Origin: Mesorhizobium sp.
Lineage (GTDB): Bacteria > Pseudomonadota > Alphaproteobacteria > Rhizobiales > Rhizobiaceae
Assembly: GCA_004020545.1 (NCBI GenBank)
Contig: SAQE01000010.1
Coordinates: forward strand, 1-64,000
DNA: 64,000 bases
Direction: 5' to 3'
A model generated the notes under the pieces. The model saw only the letters and a program-made list of their open reading frames with translations, did not search any database and was not told the origin of the DNA. Within the stretch, counting starts at the first letter, position 1, and every line of letters begins with the position of its first letter. The position numbers were made by a program, and so were the translations under genes. Below, piece by piece: positions 33,101-58,944 of this stretch.

Positions 33101-34468
33101 TCACTTGCCTTCAGAAAGAGAAATGGAGGTTCCGCTGCCGTGGGCCTCGCCGGAGCGCACGGCATGGGCAGTGGTCTGGACGCTGTGGGAGAGGCGCTGG
33201 GATCGCTGCATGCGTTTGGCCCAGGCAGGCGGGCTTTGTGCAGCGGCGCTGACTTGGCCAGCGCGACCAAACGATGGATCGTTGGCAGGCTCGGCCACGC
33301 CTCCGACCGTCCCTAGTGTCGATGAACCACCGGTCGCTTCGACGGCGGAACTGACGCCGGAGGCAAAGCTCGACTTCATTGATTGACTGGCGCGCGCTGC
33401 AGCACGCTTGAGTGGCGAGGCTGCGCCGGACATAGCAGCGCCCGCGACGCCACTTAGACCGGAGGCGACGCCACCGGCGCCGGTATGGCCGGCTGACCCG
33501 AGGGCAAAAGCGGCAGAAGCGCCTCCCGCGAGAAATGAACCGCTCCGTGCCGCTCCGGAGAAGGCGGTGGCTCCTCCTCGCGTCGCAAGGCCCACGGCGC
33601 CGCCGGCGACGAGCACTGTGCCGCCAGCGGCGAGGCCCGTGCCAATCGCGGCGCCGGCACCAAGCTGCGGTCCGCCCGAGACGAGACCATTGGCAATGCC
33701 AGGGCCGAAGATGCCGAGACCAAGCAGCGACAATGCCGCCAGCACGATCGCCATGGCCTGATCTATGGTAGGGCTGTCGCCACCGAAACCTTGGGTGAAT
33801 TCGCTGAAGAGCGTCGAACCGATGCCGATGACTACGGCAAGAACAAGCACCTTGATACCGGACGAAATGACGTTGCCGAGCACGCGTTCAGCCATGAAGG
33901 CCGTTTTGCCGAAGAGGCCGAAGGGGATCAGGACGAAGCCGGCCAGCGTCGAAAGCTTGAATTCGATCAGCGTGACGAAGAGCTGCACGGCCAGGATGAA
34001 GAAGGCAAGCAGGACAAGCGCCCAGGCGAAAAGCAGGCAAGCGATCTGAATGAAGTTTTCGAAGAAGGACACATAGCCCATCAGACCTGAGATGGCCTCG
34101 AGTAACGGTCGTCCGGCATCAAGCCCGGTCTGCGCCACCTTGCCAGGCCGGAGCAGGTCCTGCACTGAGAAGCCGGTGCCGCTTGCCTTGAGGCCGAGGC
34201 CGGCGAAGCTTTCGAAGACAATCCGGGCAAGACTGTTCCAGTTGGAAATCAGGTAGGCGAAGACGCCGACGAACAGCGTTTTCTTGACGAGCCGCGCGAG
34301 GATGTCGTCATCGGCGCCCCAACTCCAGAAGAGGGCCGCGAGCGTCACATCAATGACGATCAGAGTGGTGGCGACGAACGCGACTTCGCCGCCGAGCAAG
34401 CCGAAGCCACTGTCTATGTAACGTGTAAAGGTGCCGAGGAATTGGTCGATAATGCCGGTGCTGCCCAT
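33101..34468 (-). CDS. trbL: TrbL/VirB6-type conjugation membrane protein
   Basis: 455 residues: about six membrane helices in residues 15-270 (including FVATTLIVIDVTLAALFWSW and FILAVQLFVTLIEFKLSTLA), then a long Gly/Ala/Ser-rich low-complexity tail, as in TrbL proteins. It forms the inner-membrane pore part. Start 34468 (MGSTGIIDQFLGTFTRYIDS) is the family start; the longer frame overlaps trbK. Confidence 0.94.
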   Translation of the reverse strand: MGSTGIIDQFLGTFTRYIDSGFGLLGGEVAFVATTLIVIDVTLAALFWSWGADDDILARLVKKTLFVGVFAYLISNWNSLARIVFESFAGLGLKASGTGFSVQDLLRPGKVAQTGLDAGRPLLEAISGLMGYVSFFENFIQIACLLFAWALVLLAFFILAVQLFVTLIEFKLSTLAGFVLIPFGLFGKTAFMAERVLGNVISSGIKVLVLAVVIGIGSTLFSEFTQGFGGDSPTIDQAMAIVLAALSLLGLGIFGPGIANGLVSGGPQLGAGAAIGTGLAAGGTVLVAGGAVGLATRGGATAFSGAARSGSFLAGGASAAFALGSAGHTGAGGVASGLSGVAGAAMSGAASPLKRAAARASQSMKSSFASGVSSAVEATGGSSTLGTVGGVAEPANDPSFGRAGQVSAAAQSPPAWAKRMQRSQRLSHSVQTTAHAVRSGEAHGSGTSISLSEGK

Positions 34469-34470
34469 GC

Positions 34471-34794
34471 CTATCGAGCCCCCGGCGAGTTCGCATCCGG
34501 CGACGGCGGGGTGACCGGCTGTGAAGTCGAGCTCACAAATGGCGCGTTGGAACCGAGGAAAAGGTCGCGCTGCTCGGTCCACAGGCGCAGACAGCCGCTG
34601 TCGCGCAGCGCTCCCTCACCGAGCACCTGGCAACGGCGAAGCCCCTCGCGGAGCGGGCTCTGCGACGTTGCCGGCGCCTCGAGCACTGCTGCGCCCGGCT
34701 TGTCATCCTTGCGGGTCATCTCGACAGCTGTCGCGGCGACTGCGATGGCGACGAAGATGACGGCGATGATGCGAGCAAGGGTCTTGCCATCCAC
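34471..34794 (-). CDS. TrbK-alt entry-exclusion-like small protein
   Basis: 107 residues. One N-terminal hydrophobic helix (IIAVIFVAIAVAATAVEM) and a periplasmic part with two cysteines (RRCQVLGEGALRDSGCLRLW). This is the putative entry exclusion protein (TrbK-alt) that sits between trbJ and trbL in ICE-type trb operons. Classical TrbK is a lipoprotein; this variant is not. Confidence 0.85.
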   Translation of the reverse strand: MDGKTLARIIAVIFVAIAVAATAVEMTRKDDKPGAAVLEAPATSQSPLREGLRRCQVLGEGALRDSGCLRLWTEQRDLFLGSNAPFVSSTSQPVTPPSPDANSPGAR

Positions 34795-34805
34795 TGTGGT
34801 AATCC

Positions 34806-35564
34806 TCAGCGGTTGAACATGGAGGCATTGCCGGCCTGGTAACCGGAGCCGGGGGCGAGGAAGCGGCGGCGCTGCTCGCGCCCCTGTTCCGCAGCAGCCG
34901 CACGTTCGGCTTCTGTCAGCGCCTGGGCACGACCATTGGCGGCGACGACTGCGGTAAGGTCAGCGAGCTGTTGGGCCTGGAGCGCAAGGAGCTGGTTGCT
35001 GGCTTGGGTTGCCTGGAGCGCACCCGTCGCTGACTGACTGGCGCCGACCAGAGCGGACATTTGCGCGCGATTGGTTTCGATGTTGCCGACGACGCCAGCC
35101 TGTACGCGCATGGCGTCCTGAAGACCGCCAACGGTGTTCTGCCAACGCGAGCGCGCATCCGCGACAAGCTGCTGGTCGGTAGCTGATAGCGAGACGCTCC
35201 CGTATTTCTGCTGGAATACCTTGTCGACCTGCTGGACGTCGAAGGCGATGTTCCGCGCCTGGTTGAGGAGCTGTTGGGTGCGCTGCACCGACTGCTGCAG
35301 TTGTTGAAGCGAGGAGAAAGGCAAGCTCGCGAGATTGCGGGCCTGGTTGATCAGCATCTGGGCTTCGTTCTGGAGCGAGGTGATCTGATTGGTGATCTGC
35401 TGGAGCGATCTCGCTGCCGTCAGCACATTCTGAACGTAGTTCGACGGATCGAAAACGATGAACGCATGTGCCGGTGTAACAGGGATGAACGAGACTGCGA
35501 GCGGCGGAGCGAGCATGGCCGCGGCGAGCACAAGGACGCGCAAACGGGACTTGAGGGTAGTCAT
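34806..35564 (-). CDS. trbJ: TrbJ/VirB5-type conjugation protein
   Basis: 252 residues with signal peptide (LRVLVLAAAMLAPPLAVSFI...AHAF). The mature part FIVFDPSNYVQNVLTAARSL is followed by Gln-rich helices (QITNQITSLQNEAQMLINQA). It is the periplasmic minor pilus-like component. It overlaps the trbE end by 4 nt. Confidence 0.94.
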   Translation of the reverse strand: MTTLKSRLRVLVLAAAMLAPPLAVSFIPVTPAHAFIVFDPSNYVQNVLTAARSLQQITNQITSLQNEAQMLINQARNLASLPFSSLQQLQQSVQRTQQLLNQARNIAFDVQQVDKVFQQKYGSVSLSATDQQLVADARSRWQNTVGGLQDAMRVQAGVVGNIETNRAQMSALVGASQSATGALQATQASNQLLALQAQQLADLTAVVAANGRAQALTEAERAAAAEQGREQRRRFLAPGSGYQAGNASMFNR

Positions 35565-38017
35565 AACTGGGGCTCCTCTTCAGCTTGTGGGATGGGAGTG
35601 GGCAGGTTGGGGATGAGGTGCACGGCCCAGGCAACGTTTCGCGCGCGCAGCCAGGCCGCCAGGAAGCCGTCGCGACCGTGCTCGGCGACCACACTGGCGA
35701 TCAGGGCCTGGTCGGTTTTCGACGATGCGGCGCAAAGCGCGAGGCCAACTTCGGACAGGCCGAGTTCGAAGAGACGGTTGCCGCGCCGGGACTGGCAGTA
35801 GTAGTCGCGCTTAGGCGTCGCGCGCGCCAGGATTTCGATCTGGCGGTCGTTAAGACCGAAGCGCTGATAGATCGCCGTGATCTGCGGCTCAATCGCGCGC
35901 TCATTGGGCAGAAGAAGGCGGGTCGGACAGCTCTCGATGATCGCCGGCGCGATATTGGAGTTGTCGATGTCGGACAGCGACTGAGTGGCGAAGACGACGC
36001 TCGCGTTCTTCTTGCGCAGCGTCTTCAGCCATTCCCGAAGCTGGGTCGCAAAGCCTTCATCATCGAGCGCCAGCCAGCCCTCGTCGATGATGAGCAGCGT
36101 CGGGCGCCCGTCGAAGCGGTCGCCGATGCGATGGAACAAATAGGCAAGCACGGCAGGAGCAGCGCCTGTCCCGACAAGGCCCTCAATCTCGAAGGCCTGC
36201 ACGTCGGCGGATCCAAGATGCTCGGCCTCGGCATCAAGCAGGCGGCCGTAAGGACCGCCGACGCAAAACGGACGGAGAGCCTGTTTCAGATCGTTGGATT
36301 GCAACAGCACAGCCAAGCCGGTGATCGTACGTTCCTCGACCGGCGCGGAAGACAGCGAGGTCAGCGCGGTCCAGATATGCTCCTTGGCATCCGGGGTGAT
36401 CGGAATGCCTTCACGGGCAAGGATCGCAAGGACCCAGTCGGCCGCCCAGGCGCGCTCATAGGTGTCGTGGATGCGCGCGAATGGCTGGAGCGAAACGGAA
36501 GCCTTGCTCCCCTCGGTGAGCCCGCCCCCAAGATCGTGCCAGTCACCACCCATCGCGAGTGCAGCGGCGCGGATCGAGCCGCCGAAGTCGAAGGCGAAGA
36601 CCTGGTTGTGCGCATAGCGACGGAACTGCAGGGCCATCAGCGCAAGCAGCACGGATTTTCCCGCGCCGGTGGGACCGACGATGAGGGTGTGGCCTACATC
36701 ACCAACATGCAGCGACAACCGGAACGGGTTCGAGCCCTCGGTCTTGCCGTATAGCAAGGGAGGACTGCCGAGGTGCTCGTCCCGTTCCGGCCCCGCCCAC
36801 ACGGCGGAGAGGGGTATCATGTGGGCGAGATTGAGTGTCGAAATTGGTGGCTGGCGGACATTGGCGTAGGCATGTCCGGGCAACGAACCCAGCCATGAGT
36901 CGACGGCATTGACCGTTTCCACCATGGCGGTGAAGTCGCGACCCTGAATGACTTTCTCGACGAGGCGCAGTTTCTCTTGCGCCACGCGCGGGTCGACATC
37001 CCAGACCGTGACGGTCGCGGTAACATAGGCCATGCCCGATACGTCGGCGCCGAGTTCCTGCAAGGCCATGTCTGCATCGGCCGACTTGTTGGCGGCGTCC
37101 GTGTCGACGAGCACGGAGGCCTCGTTTGTCATCACCTCCTTCAGGATCGCGGCGATCGACTTGCGCTTGGCGAACCATTGCCGCCGGATCTTTGTCAAAA
37201 GCTTTGTGGCATCGGTCTTGTCGAGCAGGATCGCCCGCGTCGACCATCGATATGAAAAGGCGAGCCGGTTCAGATCATCAAGCAGACCTGGCGTCGTCGC
37301 AGTCGGAAAGCCCACTATGGTGAGCACGCGAAGATGCTGGTCGCCAAGGCGCGGCTCAAGCCCGCCGGTCAGTGGCAGGTCGGCCAGTAGCGCATCAAGA
37401 TAGATCGGAGTCTCGGGGACGCGAACGCGGTGGCGCTTGGTCGATACCGTCGAGTGCAGGTAGGTCAGCGCCTCGCTGTCATCGAGCCACTGGCATTCCG
37501 GCATAAAGCCATCGAGCAGGGAGAGCACGCGTTCGGTGCGGTCGACAAAGGCGCGCAGGATTTCCCCGGCATCCACGCCAGATTGTTCGCTGCCCTCGTA
37601 AAGCCACTTCTCGGCACGTGCGGTGTCGTCGAGCGGGGGCAGATAGAGGAAGGTGAGGAAGTAGCTCGATACGAAATGAACCCCTTCCTCCTCGAAGTCG
37701 GCTTTGCGCTCGGCGTCGACCAGGTGAGAGGCGGGATCGGGGAACTGGCTCTCGGGATAGGTCGCCGCCTCGTGGCGCTGCGCCTCGACGAAGATGCTCC
37801 AGCCCGAGCCAAGGCGGCGGAAGGCATTGTTGATGCGGGAGGCCACCGCGACGAGCTCGGCCGCGACGGCGGAATCGAGATCCGGCCCCCGGAATGCGGC
37901 AGTGCGCTGAAGGCTCCCATCCTTGTTGAGCACTACCCCTTTCGCGACGAGCGCAGCCCAAGGCAGGTAGTCGGCAAGGCGGCTGGCGGTGCGGCGGAAT
38001 TCAGCAAGGTTCATCAT
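35561..38017 (-). CDS. trbE: TrbE/VirB4-type conjugation ATPase
   Basis: 818 residues from MMNLAEFRRTASRL. N-terminal CagE/TrbE-VirB4 domain; Walker A IVGPTGAGKS at about residue 445; Walker B in TLLIIDEGWLALDDE. It energises pilus assembly and DNA transfer. Starts 10 nt after trbD. Confidence 0.95.
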   Translation of the reverse strand: MMNLAEFRRTASRLADYLPWAALVAKGVVLNKDGSLQRTAAFRGPDLDSAVAAELVAVASRINNAFRRLGSGWSIFVEAQRHEAATYPESQFPDPASHLVDAERKADFEEEGVHFVSSYFLTFLYLPPLDDTARAEKWLYEGSEQSGVDAGEILRAFVDRTERVLSLLDGFMPECQWLDDSEALTYLHSTVSTKRHRVRVPETPIYLDALLADLPLTGGLEPRLGDQHLRVLTIVGFPTATTPGLLDDLNRLAFSYRWSTRAILLDKTDATKLLTKIRRQWFAKRKSIAAILKEVMTNEASVLVDTDAANKSADADMALQELGADVSGMAYVTATVTVWDVDPRVAQEKLRLVEKVIQGRDFTAMVETVNAVDSWLGSLPGHAYANVRQPPISTLNLAHMIPLSAVWAGPERDEHLGSPPLLYGKTEGSNPFRLSLHVGDVGHTLIVGPTGAGKSVLLALMALQFRRYAHNQVFAFDFGGSIRAAALAMGGDWHDLGGGLTEGSKASVSLQPFARIHDTYERAWAADWVLAILAREGIPITPDAKEHIWTALTSLSSAPVEERTITGLAVLLQSNDLKQALRPFCVGGPYGRLLDAEAEHLGSADVQAFEIEGLVGTGAAPAVLAYLFHRIGDRFDGRPTLLIIDEGWLALDDEGFATQLREWLKTLRKKNASVVFATQSLSDIDNSNIAPAIIESCPTRLLLPNERAIEPQITAIYQRFGLNDRQIEILARATPKRDYYCQSRRGNRLFELGLSEVGLALCAASSKTDQALIASVVAEHGRDGFLAAWLRARNVAWAVHLIPNLPTPIPQAEEEPQL

Positions 38018-38027
38018 CACCGCGCCC

Positions 38028-38309
38028 TCAAACCGACAGATGAGCGGGAATACGCAGATGCCGGCGCCCGACTTCCATGAACAGCGGATCGCGTTTCGCA
38101 GCCCAAACGGCTGTGAAGTGTCCGAGCACCCAGATGATGAGGCCGACCAGCCAAAGGCGCAGGCCAAGGCCTACAGCACCGGCCAGCGTGCCGTTCAGAA
38201 TGGCGATGGAACGCGGCGCGCCGCCGAGCAGGATGTGCTCGGTCAATGCCCTGTGGACCGCGACGGTGAACCCCGGCACGATATCGAGGTGTTCGAGCGA
38301 GGTCGCCAT
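38028..38309 (-). CDS. trbD: TrbD/VirB3-type conjugation protein
   Basis: 93 residues, MATSLEHLDIVPGFTVAVHR then the VirB3 double-hairpin hydrophobic region (GTLAGAVGLGLRLWLVGLII). It anchors TrbE to the inner membrane. Its start overlaps the trbC stop. Confidence 0.93.
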   Translation of the reverse strand: MATSLEHLDIVPGFTVAVHRALTEHILLGGAPRSIAILNGTLAGAVGLGLRLWLVGLIIWVLGHFTAVWAAKRDPLFMEVGRRHLRIPAHLSV

Positions 38310-38635
38310 CAGATCAGTGCCCCGCCGCCGAAGGAAAAGAACGACAGAAAGAAGCTCGACGCCGCGAAGGCGATCGACAGGCCGAAGACGATCTGGATCA
38401 GCCGCCGGAACCCGCCGGAGGTATCGCCAAAGGCAAGCGTCAGCCCCGTGACGATGATGATGATGACGGCGATGATCTTGGAGACCGGGCCTTCGATCGA
38501 CTGAAGGATCTTCTCCAATGGCTGCTCCCACGGCATCGACGAGCCGGCTGCATTGGCAGCGGGGACGACAATGGCGCTGACGATGAGCGTTGTGGCGGCA
38601 GTAACCAGGTACTGGCGTGAAAGCTTGCGGATCAT
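38309..38635 (-). CDS. trbC: TrbC/VirB2-type pilin precursor
   Basis: 108 residues. A long signal (LVTAATTLIVSAIVVPAANA) and two hydrophobic helices (ISKIIAVIIIIVTGLTLAF-like and FGLSIAFAASSFFLSFF). TrbC pilins are processed and, in IncP/Ti relatives, cyclised by TraF; the TraF-type peptidase at 52575-53120 is the probable partner. Confidence 0.93.
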   Translation of the reverse strand: MIRKLSRQYLVTAATTLIVSAIVVPAANAAGSSMPWEQPLEKILQSIEGPVSKIIAVIIIIVTGLTLAFGDTSGGFRRLIQIVFGLSIAFAASSFFLSFFSFGGGALI

Positions 38636-39612
38636 GAACCGTCTCCTGTGTTGTCCGGGGTGGCCTGCGAGATGCGATAATCGCCATCGGGTCCAAGCCC
38701 TTGGACGCGAGCGAGTTCGGTGAGCCGCCGTGCGGGGCCGCGACCTGACAGCACGGCAACGATATCGATGGTTTCGGCAATCAGCGCGCGTGGGACGGTG
38801 ACGACGGCTTCCTGGATGAGCTGCTCGAGACGGCGTAGTGCTCCAATGCCCGAGCCGGCATGAATGGTGCCGATGCCGCCGGGATGTCCTGTGCCCCATG
38901 CCTTCAGGAGGTCGAGGGCCTCGGCGCCGCGCACTTCGCCGATAGGGATGCGGTCTGGCCGCAGTCGCAGCGAGGAGCGGACCAGGTCGGAAAGCGTAGC
39001 GACGCCGTCCTTGGTGCGCATGGCGACAAGGTTGGGCGCCGCGCATTGCAGTTCGCGCGTGTCTTCGATGATGATGACGCGATCGGCACTCCTTGCCACC
39101 TCGGCGAGCAAGGCATTGGTCAATGTCGTCTTGCCGGAGGATGTACCGCCGGCGATCAGGATGTTGGCGCGGGTGGTGACCGCGGCACGCAAGGTCGCCG
39201 CCTGCTCGATGGCCATGATACCTGCAGCGACATAGTCATCGAGTGTGAAGACTGCGACAGCGGGCTTGCGGATCGCAAAGGCAGGTGCTGAAACGACGGG
39301 CGGCAGCAGACCTTCGAAGCGTTCGCCGGTTTCGGGCAGTTCAGCAGAGACCCGCGGAGAGCGAGGATGCACCTCCGCACCCACGTGATGGGCTACCAAG
39401 CGCACGATGCGTTCGCCGTCAGCGGCAGACAGCGTCTCTTGCGTCTCGGCCAAACCGTTGGTGAGACGATCCACCCAGATACGGCCATCAGGGTTCAGCA
39501 TGACTTCGACGACAGCGGGGTCGTCCAGGAACCGGCTTATGGCGACCCCGAGCGCTGTGCGCAGCATGCGCGAACTGCGCGCGCGGCCTTCGGGATTGTT
39601 GTGTGGAACCAC
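38632..39612 (-). CDS. trbB: TrbB/VirB11-type conjugation ATPase
   Basis: 326 residues from GTG. Walker A GGTSSGKT at 155-162, Walker B/Asp box [11 protein letters not shown], His box [19 protein letters not shown] hexameric traffic ATPase driving pilus assembly and substrate transfer. First gene of the trb operon. In related ICEs the gene immediately before trbB is copG; here it is not (copG is at 58301). Confidence 0.95.
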
Positions 39613-39657: not shown

Positions 39658-40016
39658 TCGGGGATGATCAAGAGAACCAGAAATCTGGCCGGTTCAACAA
39701 GTTTCCGTTCCGGTCGTACTGTGGCGTGCAAATACAGGCGGGCGGCGGCGCAGCCGCTGCCGTCCTCCGGATCCAGAACGCTTCCGAGATCGAACTTGAG
39801 CCGCAGGAGCGGTAGAGCGAGCCGGCTCAGCCACCTGGATCATCGACTATCGCGGCGTCTGATTGGCCAAAGCTCTTTGCGGGGCTCCATGCTGGTGTTC
39901 GCCGTTGCGATTCGCCCGCAGTTTCCTCCGTCCGTGCGGCACATGGGCCTTGGCTGAAACCAAGATCAGCGGTTCGGTTGCGCGGAACGCACAGCAGCCG
40001 TATTGAACAGCCTATT
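39658..40016. other. Intergenic DNA at the break of the conjugation module
   Basis: No reading frame on either strand resembles the copG/traG end that would be expected ahead of trbB. Contains no recognised gene; it leads into the iteron array. Confidence 0.4.
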
Positions 40017-40126
40017 GCACAATACCCTAATTTTGGTGCAGCATAATAACCTAATTATAGAGAAGCATAATTCCCTAATGAAAGCGCGACGTAAAACCTA
40101 ACAGTTGCGCAGCACGAAAACCTGAG
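40017..40126 (+). repeat. Iteron-like direct repeats (24-nt period) upstream of fic gene
   Basis: Three close copies, GCACAATACCCTAAT (40017), GCATAATAACCTAAT (40041) and GCATAATTCCCTAAT (40065), are spaced exactly 24 nt apart. Two weaker copies follow: GACGTAAAACCTAAC (40088) and GCACGAAAACCTGAG (40112). The last ends 10 nt before the ATG of the Fic fusion gene, so the array covers its promoter and ribosome site. Confidence 0.8.
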
Positions 40127-40135
40127 GGCCTCAAA

Positions 40136-41692
40136 ATGGCACTGCCTCATGAGAAGCTGGCCGAGGCGCTCGCCGCTCTCAAGGTGCTTCAGGATCGGCA
40201 TATCGTCGCCATTCGCTCAACCGAACTATCCCGTACCCACCGCGAGCGGCTTCTCAAGAACGGCTTCCTGCAGGAAGTCATGAAAGGCTGGTACGTGCCG
40301 TCCAATCCCAACCAGCGTCAGGGTGAGACAACGGGCTGGTACGCCTCGTTCTGGGATTTTTGCGCCAACTATCTGAATGACCGCTTCGGCAAGGATTGGT
40401 GCGTTGCCCCCGAACCTTCTCTCTCCTTTCATGCAGGCAATCGGACGGTGCCGGGACAATTGCGGGTGCGATCCCCGACCGGAGGCAACAAACCCACCGA
40501 GCTTTTGCACGGCACATCGATTTTCGACATCCGGGCCAGCATGCCGGCTGCCCGCGACATCGCCGGGATCGACGGCCTTCGCCTCTACACCTTGCCGGCG
40601 GCGCTTGTCGAAGCCTCCCCCACTTTCTTCTCGCAGAAGCCGACCGACGCGCGGACGGCGCTGACGATGGTCTCGGATGCATCGGAAATTCTCGCGCGAC
40701 TTCTTGAAGGAGGTCACAGCACCATTGCTGGTCGCCTGGCGGGCGCATTTCGCAATATTGGCCGCGAACGGATAGCAGATGACGTTATCCGCAGCATGCA
40801 GGCTGCCGGTTACACGGTTCGTGAGACCGACCCGTTCGATACACGGCTTGAGTTGTCCTTGCCGCGCCGCGAAACTTCACCCTATGCCGGGCGGATCAGA
40901 TTGATGTGGCAGGAGATGCGCGGCAGGGTCATCGACAATTTCCCGGAGGCGCCCGGCCGTCCGAACGATGTCGCTGACTATCTTCGGCGCGTTGATGACA
41001 TCTATGTCACCGATGCATATCACTCGCTTTCCATCGAAGGCTACCGGGTCAGCCCCGAGTTGATAGATCGGCTCCGCAGTGGCAACTGGAACCCCGACGG
41101 CGACCCGCAAGACGGTGAACATCGCGACGCACTCGCGGCGCGTGGTTACTACCAAGCCTTCGAAGCGGTGAAGCGCAGCGTTGGATCAGTGCTGGCCAAT
41201 GAAAATCCCGGCCGCGTCGTCGATGACGATCATGGACAATGGTACCGCGAGCTATTCGCTCCCAGCGTTGCGGCCGGTATCGTCAAGCCCGGCGATCTGG
41301 CTGGCTACCGCAGCGATCGCGTATTCATCCGCAACTCCATGCATGTCCCGCTGTCGCCCAATGCCGTTCGGGATGCGATGCCCGTCTTCTTCGAGATGCT
41401 CGAGGCAGAAGAGCAACCGGGGGTGCGGGTGGTCCTCGGCCATTTCATTTTTGTCTATGTCCATCCCTACATGGACGGGAACGGTCGCATAGGGCGGTTC
41501 CTGATGAACGTCATGATGGCAGCGGGCGGCTATCCCTGGACTATCATTCCCGTGCAACGCCGCGCTGCATACATGGCCGCCCTTGAGCGGGCCAGTGTCC
41601 ACCAAGACATTGTGCCGTTCAGTCGCTTTCTAAGTGAATTGGCAGATCAAAGCATGTCGGGGAAGACAGCCGCGACCTTGCCCAGCGGCTAG
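40136..41692 (+). CDS. AbiEi-like winged-helix/Fic fusion protein
   Basis: 518 residues. The N-terminal part (residues about 1-220) resembles AbiEi-type antitoxins: a winged helix ending RERLLKNGFLQEVMKGWYVP, then FWDFCANYLNDRFGKDWCVA and SLSFHAGNRTVPGQLRVRSP. The C-terminal half is a Fic AMP-transferase domain with the complete motif HPYMDGNGRIGR at residues 443-454 and an inhibitory SLSIEG motif (S/TxxxE[G/N]) at 297-302. Fic enzymes transfer AMP to hydroxyls. The inhibitory glutamate suggests tight self-control, and the winged helix may bind the iterons just upstream and repress its own gene (inference). Confidence 0.85.
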   Translation: MALPHEKLAEALAALKVLQDRHIVAIRSTELSRTHRERLLKNGFLQEVMKGWYVPSNPNQRQGETTGWYASFWDFCANYLNDRFGKDWCVAPEPSLSFHAGNRTVPGQLRVRSPTGGNKPTELLHGTSIFDIRASMPAARDIAGIDGLRLYTLPAALVEASPTFFSQKPTDARTALTMVSDASEILARLLEGGHSTIAGRLAGAFRNIGRERIADDVIRSMQAAGYTVRETDPFDTRLELSLPRRETSPYAGRIRLMWQEMRGRVIDNFPEAPGRPNDVADYLRRVDDIYVTDAYHSLSIEGYRVSPELIDRLRSGNWNPDGDPQDGEHRDALAARGYYQAFEAVKRSVGSVLANENPGRVVDDDHGQWYRELFAPSVAAGIVKPGDLAGYRSDRVFIRNSMHVPLSPNAVRDAMPVFFEMLEAEEQPGVRVVLGHFIFVYVHPYMDGNGRIGRFLMNVMMAAGGYPWTIIPVQRRAAYMAALERASVHQDIVPFSRFLSELADQSMSGKTAATLPSG

Positions 41693-58756: not shown

Positions 58757-58944
58757 GCTTGTTCGCGCCAGTTGCTCGCGGCGTTGCACCGGAATGACGG
58801 CCCAGGGATAGCCACCGGCCGCCATCAAGAAGCCTGAACAGCTGTTGCCGATCATTGTCCTCGACGAGGAGCCCTTATCTTGGCCTAATGGCGTCCTGCC
58901 CTGACTGAAAGAGGGCGATTGGGACAGCGAGATCAGGTGAAAAT

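Follow-up and report, generated by a model that had tools for sequence, protein, structure and literature searches.

A head-to-tail array of 24-nt repeats as a probable operator of an AbiEi-like/Fic fusion gene in Mesorhizobium

Why should five evenly spaced repeats stand directly in front of a gene for a Fic protein? The question arises in a 64,000-nucleotide (nt) stretch of a Mesorhizobium sp. genome (assembly GCA_004020545.1, contig SAQE01000010.1, positions 1 to 64,000; hereafter the window), where an array of 24-nt units precedes a gene that fuses an AbiEi-like head to a Fic domain. The original prediction called the units iteron-like and proposed that the winged helix of the encoded protein could bind them. 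Very probably the fusion protein recognizes the repeats and thereby controls its own gene, because the repeat letters vary together with two of the protein's residues. It is highly likely from this sequence comparison that the five repeats, arranged head to tail, serve the fusion as an operator for repressing its own promoter.

The window array comprises five 24-nt units at 40014-40132, starting at 40014, 40038, 40062, 40085 and 40109 with spacings of 24, 24, 23 and 24 nt, and 3 nt separate the last unit from the ATG at 40136.

40014 to 40037, forward strand: array unit 1 of the unit chain; base 13 is C at 40026
40038 to 40061, forward strand: array unit 2 of the unit chain; base 13 is C at 40050
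40062 to 40085, forward strand: array unit 3 of the unit chain; base 13 is C at 40074
40085 to 40108, forward strand: array unit 4 of the unit chain, at a spacing of 23; base 13 is C at 40097
40109 to 40132, forward strand: array unit 5 of the unit chain, ending 3 nt before the ATG; base 13 is C at 40121
40136 to 41692, forward strand: AbiEi-like/Fic fusion gene encoding 518 amino acids (open reading frame; relatives found by genome scan)

The sequence GCAYAATWMCCTAAT is present without mismatch at 40017, 40041 and 40065, the three strong copies that had been reported exactly 24 nt apart, and the two weaker copies said to continue the register toward the ATG in steps of 23 and 24 nt were recovered as units 4 and 5. 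At up to one mismatch it occurs only in those three places of the 7.0 Mb genome assembly. When three mismatches were allowed, the window gave three matches, all exact and in register, against 2.48 expected in shuffles; the motif count in the window alone is poor evidence, and the case is carried by regular spacing and conservation. The word CCTATTG at the start of unit 1 (40011-40017) lies outside the 24-nt register and is common to Mesorhizobium loci L004, L005, L008, L009 and L057, with variants in L006 and L007.

A scan of bacterial genomes returned 208 stretches with relatives, the best 80 of which were kept, so that this main set leans to close relatives. It gave 80 array rows (79 relatives and the window) and 79 protein rows: L017, with an open frame of 141 residues, counts for arrays and not for proteins, L076 was left out of all counts since its match starts at residue 24 and the start codon was not set, and the fragments L092 and L093 were excluded. 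In 80 of 80 loci a chain of two to six units was found upstream of the gene under a 24-nt unit model, with 250 of the 258 spacings between units at 24 nt and the other eight at 23 nt. The chain scored at least 32.0 bits in every locus (median 85.2); the controls reached at most 12.6 bits in the stretch from -780 to -530 (73 loci) and at most 20.3 bits as the best of 20 first-order Markov resamplings per locus. Since training and scoring of the unit model used the same 80 loci, a model-free lag test matters here. Of 55 lags compared, lag 24 came first in 64 of the 80 upstream regions, and in all 80 it ranked third or better. In three control stretches it was best in 2 of 77, 4 of 80 and 2 of 80 cases and in the top three in 3, 11 and 10; in related genomes, where the Fic motif located 20 other Fic genes, the upstream regions of these had it as best lag in no case and among the top three in 3. 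The repeat array before the AbiEi-Fic gene is thereby confirmed as real, and the same array does stand upstream of the homologues, as the original prediction had suggested looking for.

The period also holds at greater distance. A second group of 34 loci, from plasmids, one viral contig and other genomes with identity down to about 41%, had its best lag at 24 in 28 loci, at 23 in 3 and at 48 in 3, and a third group of 14 loci at 24 in 9, at 48 in 4 and at 47 in 1; some loci of these two groups duplicate first-group loci. Loci L120, L125 and L131 (best lag 23) and L301 (47) are possibly sub-lineages with a 23-nt period. The unit letters drift strongly (CCTAA, GCTAA, GCGAA, ACTTG, ACGTG, ACGAG) at a constant period. 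Carriers were assigned to Alpha-, Beta-, Gamma-, Delta- and Zetaproteobacteria, Acidobacteria, Chloroflexi, a Puniceicoccaceae bacterium and Melainabacteria-type genomes, many of them metagenome-assembled, so that some of these assignments may be wrong. A relative at E 1e-60 or better is present in 14 of 398 genomes drawn from the phylum, the genome of the window included, and the protein query returned one locus from viral_contigs. Three AMCCTA words at 24-nt steps matched 7 of the 398 genomes: G313, with two overlapping matches before its Fic fusion; G330, G218, G144 and G158, where the letters resemble tandem-repeat sequence; and G391 and G235. The same pattern matched at least 120 stretches in viral_contigs, and it is too loose to find arrays, because a reversed control pattern also matches several genomes.

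Could the repeats be a functionless product of replication slippage? Some arrays, such as that of L130, do consist of nearly identical units. However, base 13 of the unit is identical within a locus at 0.89 against 0.41 between loci (79 loci pooled), and many non-core positions are no more alike within than between loci: at eight other positions the difference is at most 0.02, with a smaller excess of about 0.1 at positions 15, 17 and 18. As slippage should make neighboring positions alike too, this points to selection for sameness at base 13. The period is moreover kept in very divergent members, and slippage is already contradicted by the correspondence between residue and base described below; we regard it as a scarcely credible origin of the array.

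Base 13 follows the protein. Among 367 variable protein columns in 51 non-redundant rows, residues 117, 119 and 116 ranked highest for association with base 13 (z 19.2, 11.4 and 10.1), and the same three columns stood out in 57 rows (z 15.9, 10.7 and 9.0). In the window these residues belong to a putative hairpin of the second domain.

40481 to 40492, forward strand: candidate specificity hairpin G116-G117-N118-K119 (covariation with unit base 13)

Scored on the majority base per locus, all 26 training rows with Arg117 have G. Of the rows lacking it, the 42 with Lys119 all have C, and the 8 with Asn or Gln at 119 all have A. The rule is thus correct in 76 of 76 called training rows with clear register, and 3 of the 79 rows fall outside it. 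Single units obey the base of their class in 96 of 108 cases (G), 176 of 183 (C) and 32 of 32 (A). Arg with G and Asn or Gln with A are the usual side-chain preferences. At unit base 15, rows with Arg117 carry G in 4 of 5 cases when residue 119 is Asn and in 1 of 21 when it is another residue, as if residue 119 then reads another base; the loci concerned are L033, L034, L037 and L081, with L064 as the exception.

The rule was outlined before later sequences were examined, its final wording was set after the first later set was known, and the third group was obtained afterwards; the register of later rows was set ignoring base 13. In the second group, from which the broken copy L091 was left out so that 33 of 34 loci enter, the rule was right in 20 of 20 called rows (5 rows without call, 8 with unclear register), 15 of which share less than 95% identity with any training row, some of these being close to each other. 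In the third group it was right in 9 of 9 (14 rows; 2 without call, 3 with unclear register), 7 of which are less than 95% identical over the first 260 residues to any earlier row. On a tree built from the Fic half only, base and residue class need 15 changes each, so that their match is not one inherited state.

Several observations weigh against this account. In rows of unclear register the rule was right in only 4 of 8 cases in the second group and 1 of 2 in the third, the third row giving no call. The GSGQ hairpin of L087, whose head is the same as that of the third-group locus L296, contradicts the rule, in a row of unclear register. Independent pairs on well-supported branches number only 4; all agree for Arg117 and G, but Lys119 alone is inconsistent on those branches, since it also occurs beside Arg117. 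The proposal that the head binds the repeats is nonetheless strongly supported by the covariation, with the difference that the covarying residues map to the predicted second-domain hairpin and not to the winged helix to which binding had been ascribed.

Alternatively, some other regulator might bind the array while the fusion does not touch it, and the case for binding by the fusion does come from sequence comparison. Against such a third party, base 13 follows residues 117 and 119 of the adjacent protein, and array and gene travel together across many phyla with no recurring neighbor: within the flanks examined, the largest neighbor family occurs at 6 of the loci compared. Furthermore, no second array was found with this unit model in about 511 kb of locus flanks or elsewhere in the window. 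We consider a separate regulator very improbable. The unit of inheritance seems to be the array together with the gene. Several broken gene copies occur in the genus (L017, L091 and L298, with fragments in G007 and G053); arrays persist upstream of these three, and L091 and L298 share unit letters.

As to how the fusion would act, each 24-bp unit may take up one monomer, with adjacent monomers aligned head to tail; the winged helix would contact conserved parts of the unit, and the second-domain hairpin (residues 116-119) would read base pair 13. Because 24 bp correspond to about 2.3 turns of B-DNA, successive monomers would follow a path around the helix and not share one face. A filled array would shut the promoter, because promoter elements sit inside the units, and the fusion would in this way repress its own gene. 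We infer that the protein physically binds the array, cooperatively and with a single monomer on each unit, that it represses the gene and that the Fic domain is active. Units resembling a -35 element (T[ACT]GAC[AG]) are present in 52 of the 80 loci. Of 55 such units, 37 have TG at the appropriate distance downstream, 35 have a -10-like hexamer there and 24 have both, against 26, 18 and 5 among 195 other units; the rows are related by descent, which makes significance inexact. The signature is clearer in many other members (TCGACA ... TG-N-TACAAC; in L012 TCGACA, TG and TACAAC) than in the window, which lies outside the -35-like count and for which the promoter reading is weak.

40014 to 40042, forward strand: weak promoter-like pair in units 1-2 (ATTGCA, TG at 40034, TGCAGC; weak match)

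In many loci only a few nt separate the array from the start codon, as would be expected if the protein bound repeats in the 5′ leader of the transcript and blocked translation. The promoter signature, where present, lies inside the array, however, which would leave the units upstream of it untranscribed, and AbiEi relatives bind DNA, according to the part of the source available (PMC7319586). Control at the RNA level is therefore a reading to which we attach very little weight.

The fusion protein that would occupy the array can be divided as follows.

40136 to 40315, forward strand: winged helix-turn-helix, residues 1-60 (predicted model, fold matches)
40325 to 40810, forward strand: second domain with a nucleotidyltransferase-like fold as in AbiEi-type antitoxins, residues 64-225 (predicted model, fold matches)
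40895 to 41668, forward strand: FICD-like Fic domain, residues 254-511 (domain matches)
41024 to 41041, forward strand: inhibitory motif SLSIEG, residues 297-302 (111 of 112 rows)
41462 to 41497, forward strand: Fic motif HPYMDGNGRIGR, residues 443-454 (the pattern is conserved in all 112 rows)

The Fic motif HP[FY]x[DE]GNGRxxR is found in 112 of 112 rows, with Pfam Fic above cut-off, and the inhibitory helix [ST]xxxE[GN] precedes the Fic core as SLSIEG in 111 of 112. The Fic domain is FICD-like and, by these motifs, of class II, the autoinhibited class. The predicted fold of the head is AbiEi-like, as had been claimed for the winged helix, and is so over both domains, with Rv2827c nearest. 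This match is not fully clear-cut, in that MenT1 ranks between Rv2827c and AbiEi, which slightly lowers confidence in the operator reading. In sequence profiles the kinship does not show: the window row has no Pfam or NCBIfam match, and among 58 members such matches were only single or double and weak (best E 0.015). A profile search against solved structures found mainly artificial helical-repeat proteins on the helical end of the head, which were taken as chance matches. The head was found in 9 of 101 related genomes, each time where the fusion or pieces of it were also found. Elsewhere in the window, 58769-58855 weakly matches Fic residues 451-479 (E 2.9e-4), with no Fic-like frame of at least 60 residues there by eye.

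The surroundings of the gene raise the possibility that the repeats are replication iterons or the centromere of a mobile element and that the Fic gene is adjacent by accident. Direct repeats of about 24 bp would suit such a role, and several relatives lie on plasmids, some beside repABC or repC. Yet single-contig genomes of 6.3 Mb (G021) and 3.6 Mb (G310) contain copies, so at least two copies are chromosomal, and the residue-base code ties the repeats to the Fic fusion. The term iteron in its replication-origin sense found no support, the array preceding the fusion in 80 of 80 loci, in one of them (L024) displaced by about 170 nt; we hold an origin or centromere to be barely conceivable. At L024 the chained units lie 166-214 nt upstream, and unit-like words nearer the gene are in another register, as if the array had been displaced by an insertion. 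Iterons, slippage, a third-party regulator and RNA-level control were rejected on the code, the linkage, the period and the embedded promoter. The neighbors of the gene in the window include an integrase and genes with Pfam matches to T2SSE (VirB11-type ATPase), TraG P-loop and TrbL; plasmid copies of the gene lie between traH and traM with a small helix-turn-helix gene, beside trbI, or near repABC or repC. The recurrence beside conjugation genes (traH/traM, trbI, VirB11-type) at L138, L139, L299 and window positions 33101-39612 hints at a role in conjugative elements.

More speculatively, and with rather low probability, the locus may be a one-gene toxin-antitoxin unit, in which fusions lining the array would be held inactive or deAMPylating and loss, damage or titration of the array would free AMPylation of a target. 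Plasmid loss, phage attack or conjugative entry could trigger such release. A switch of this kind has a precedent, because the class II Fic protein CbFic2 changes state in a DNA-dependent manner, as described in the accessible part of PMC10628234. No separate AbiEii nucleotidyltransferase toxin gene recurred next door in the flanks compared, and the partner would be the Fic domain in the same chain.

Neither the array nor the AbiEi-Fic fusion family was found described among the papers listed by searches of the open-access PMC literature without preprints, a coverage outside which most subscription journals lie; for iterons of such a fusion, this agrees with the original prediction, which knew of none. 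A widespread family would gain a defined operator together with a residue-base code that is simple and predictive, found by covariation alone and then checked on later sequences. From the code it would seem that DNA specificity can reside in the second domain of the AbiEi fold, which is described as an antitoxin domain, and a link between DNA binding and Fic activity becomes directly testable.

Among known systems, FICD (HYPE), a eukaryotic enzyme of the endoplasmic reticulum, matches only the Fic half of the fusion. The same holds for the SoFic anti-phage proteins, which have the Fic domain in common: the SoFic model is the best PADLOC match (E 8.3e-18), covering only residues 290-506 and leaving the AbiEi-like head unmatched (PMC12249575, as far as its available text goes). 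Coxiella burnetii CbFic2 is a class II Fic protein with a DNA-binding domain, and DNA binding alters its enzyme activity; however, that domain is a C-terminal helix-turn-helix, the DNA used was random, the target is host histone and no array is described in the available portion of the article (PMC10628234). CccR of Yersinia pseudotuberculosis, another class II Fic protein with a DNA-binding domain, represses its own promoter, but as a dimer with a C-terminal helix-turn-helix on one pair of 10-bp inverted repeats 26 bp apart, whereas here the head is N-terminal and the repeats are direct; the accessible sections describe no N-terminal AbiEi-like head or array (PMC9755527). AbiEi and Rv2827c of type IV toxin-antitoxin systems share the two-domain layout, winged helix plus second domain, here by predicted fold, and their monomers bind 23-bp inverted repeats in their own promoter and repress it, in the account given by the part of the paper available (PMC7319586). 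Their inverted repeats, two or four in number according to the same text, correspond here to 2-6 head-to-tail 24-bp units, and the AbiEi toxin, there a separate nucleotidyltransferase protein, to a Fic domain in the same chain (PMC7319586).
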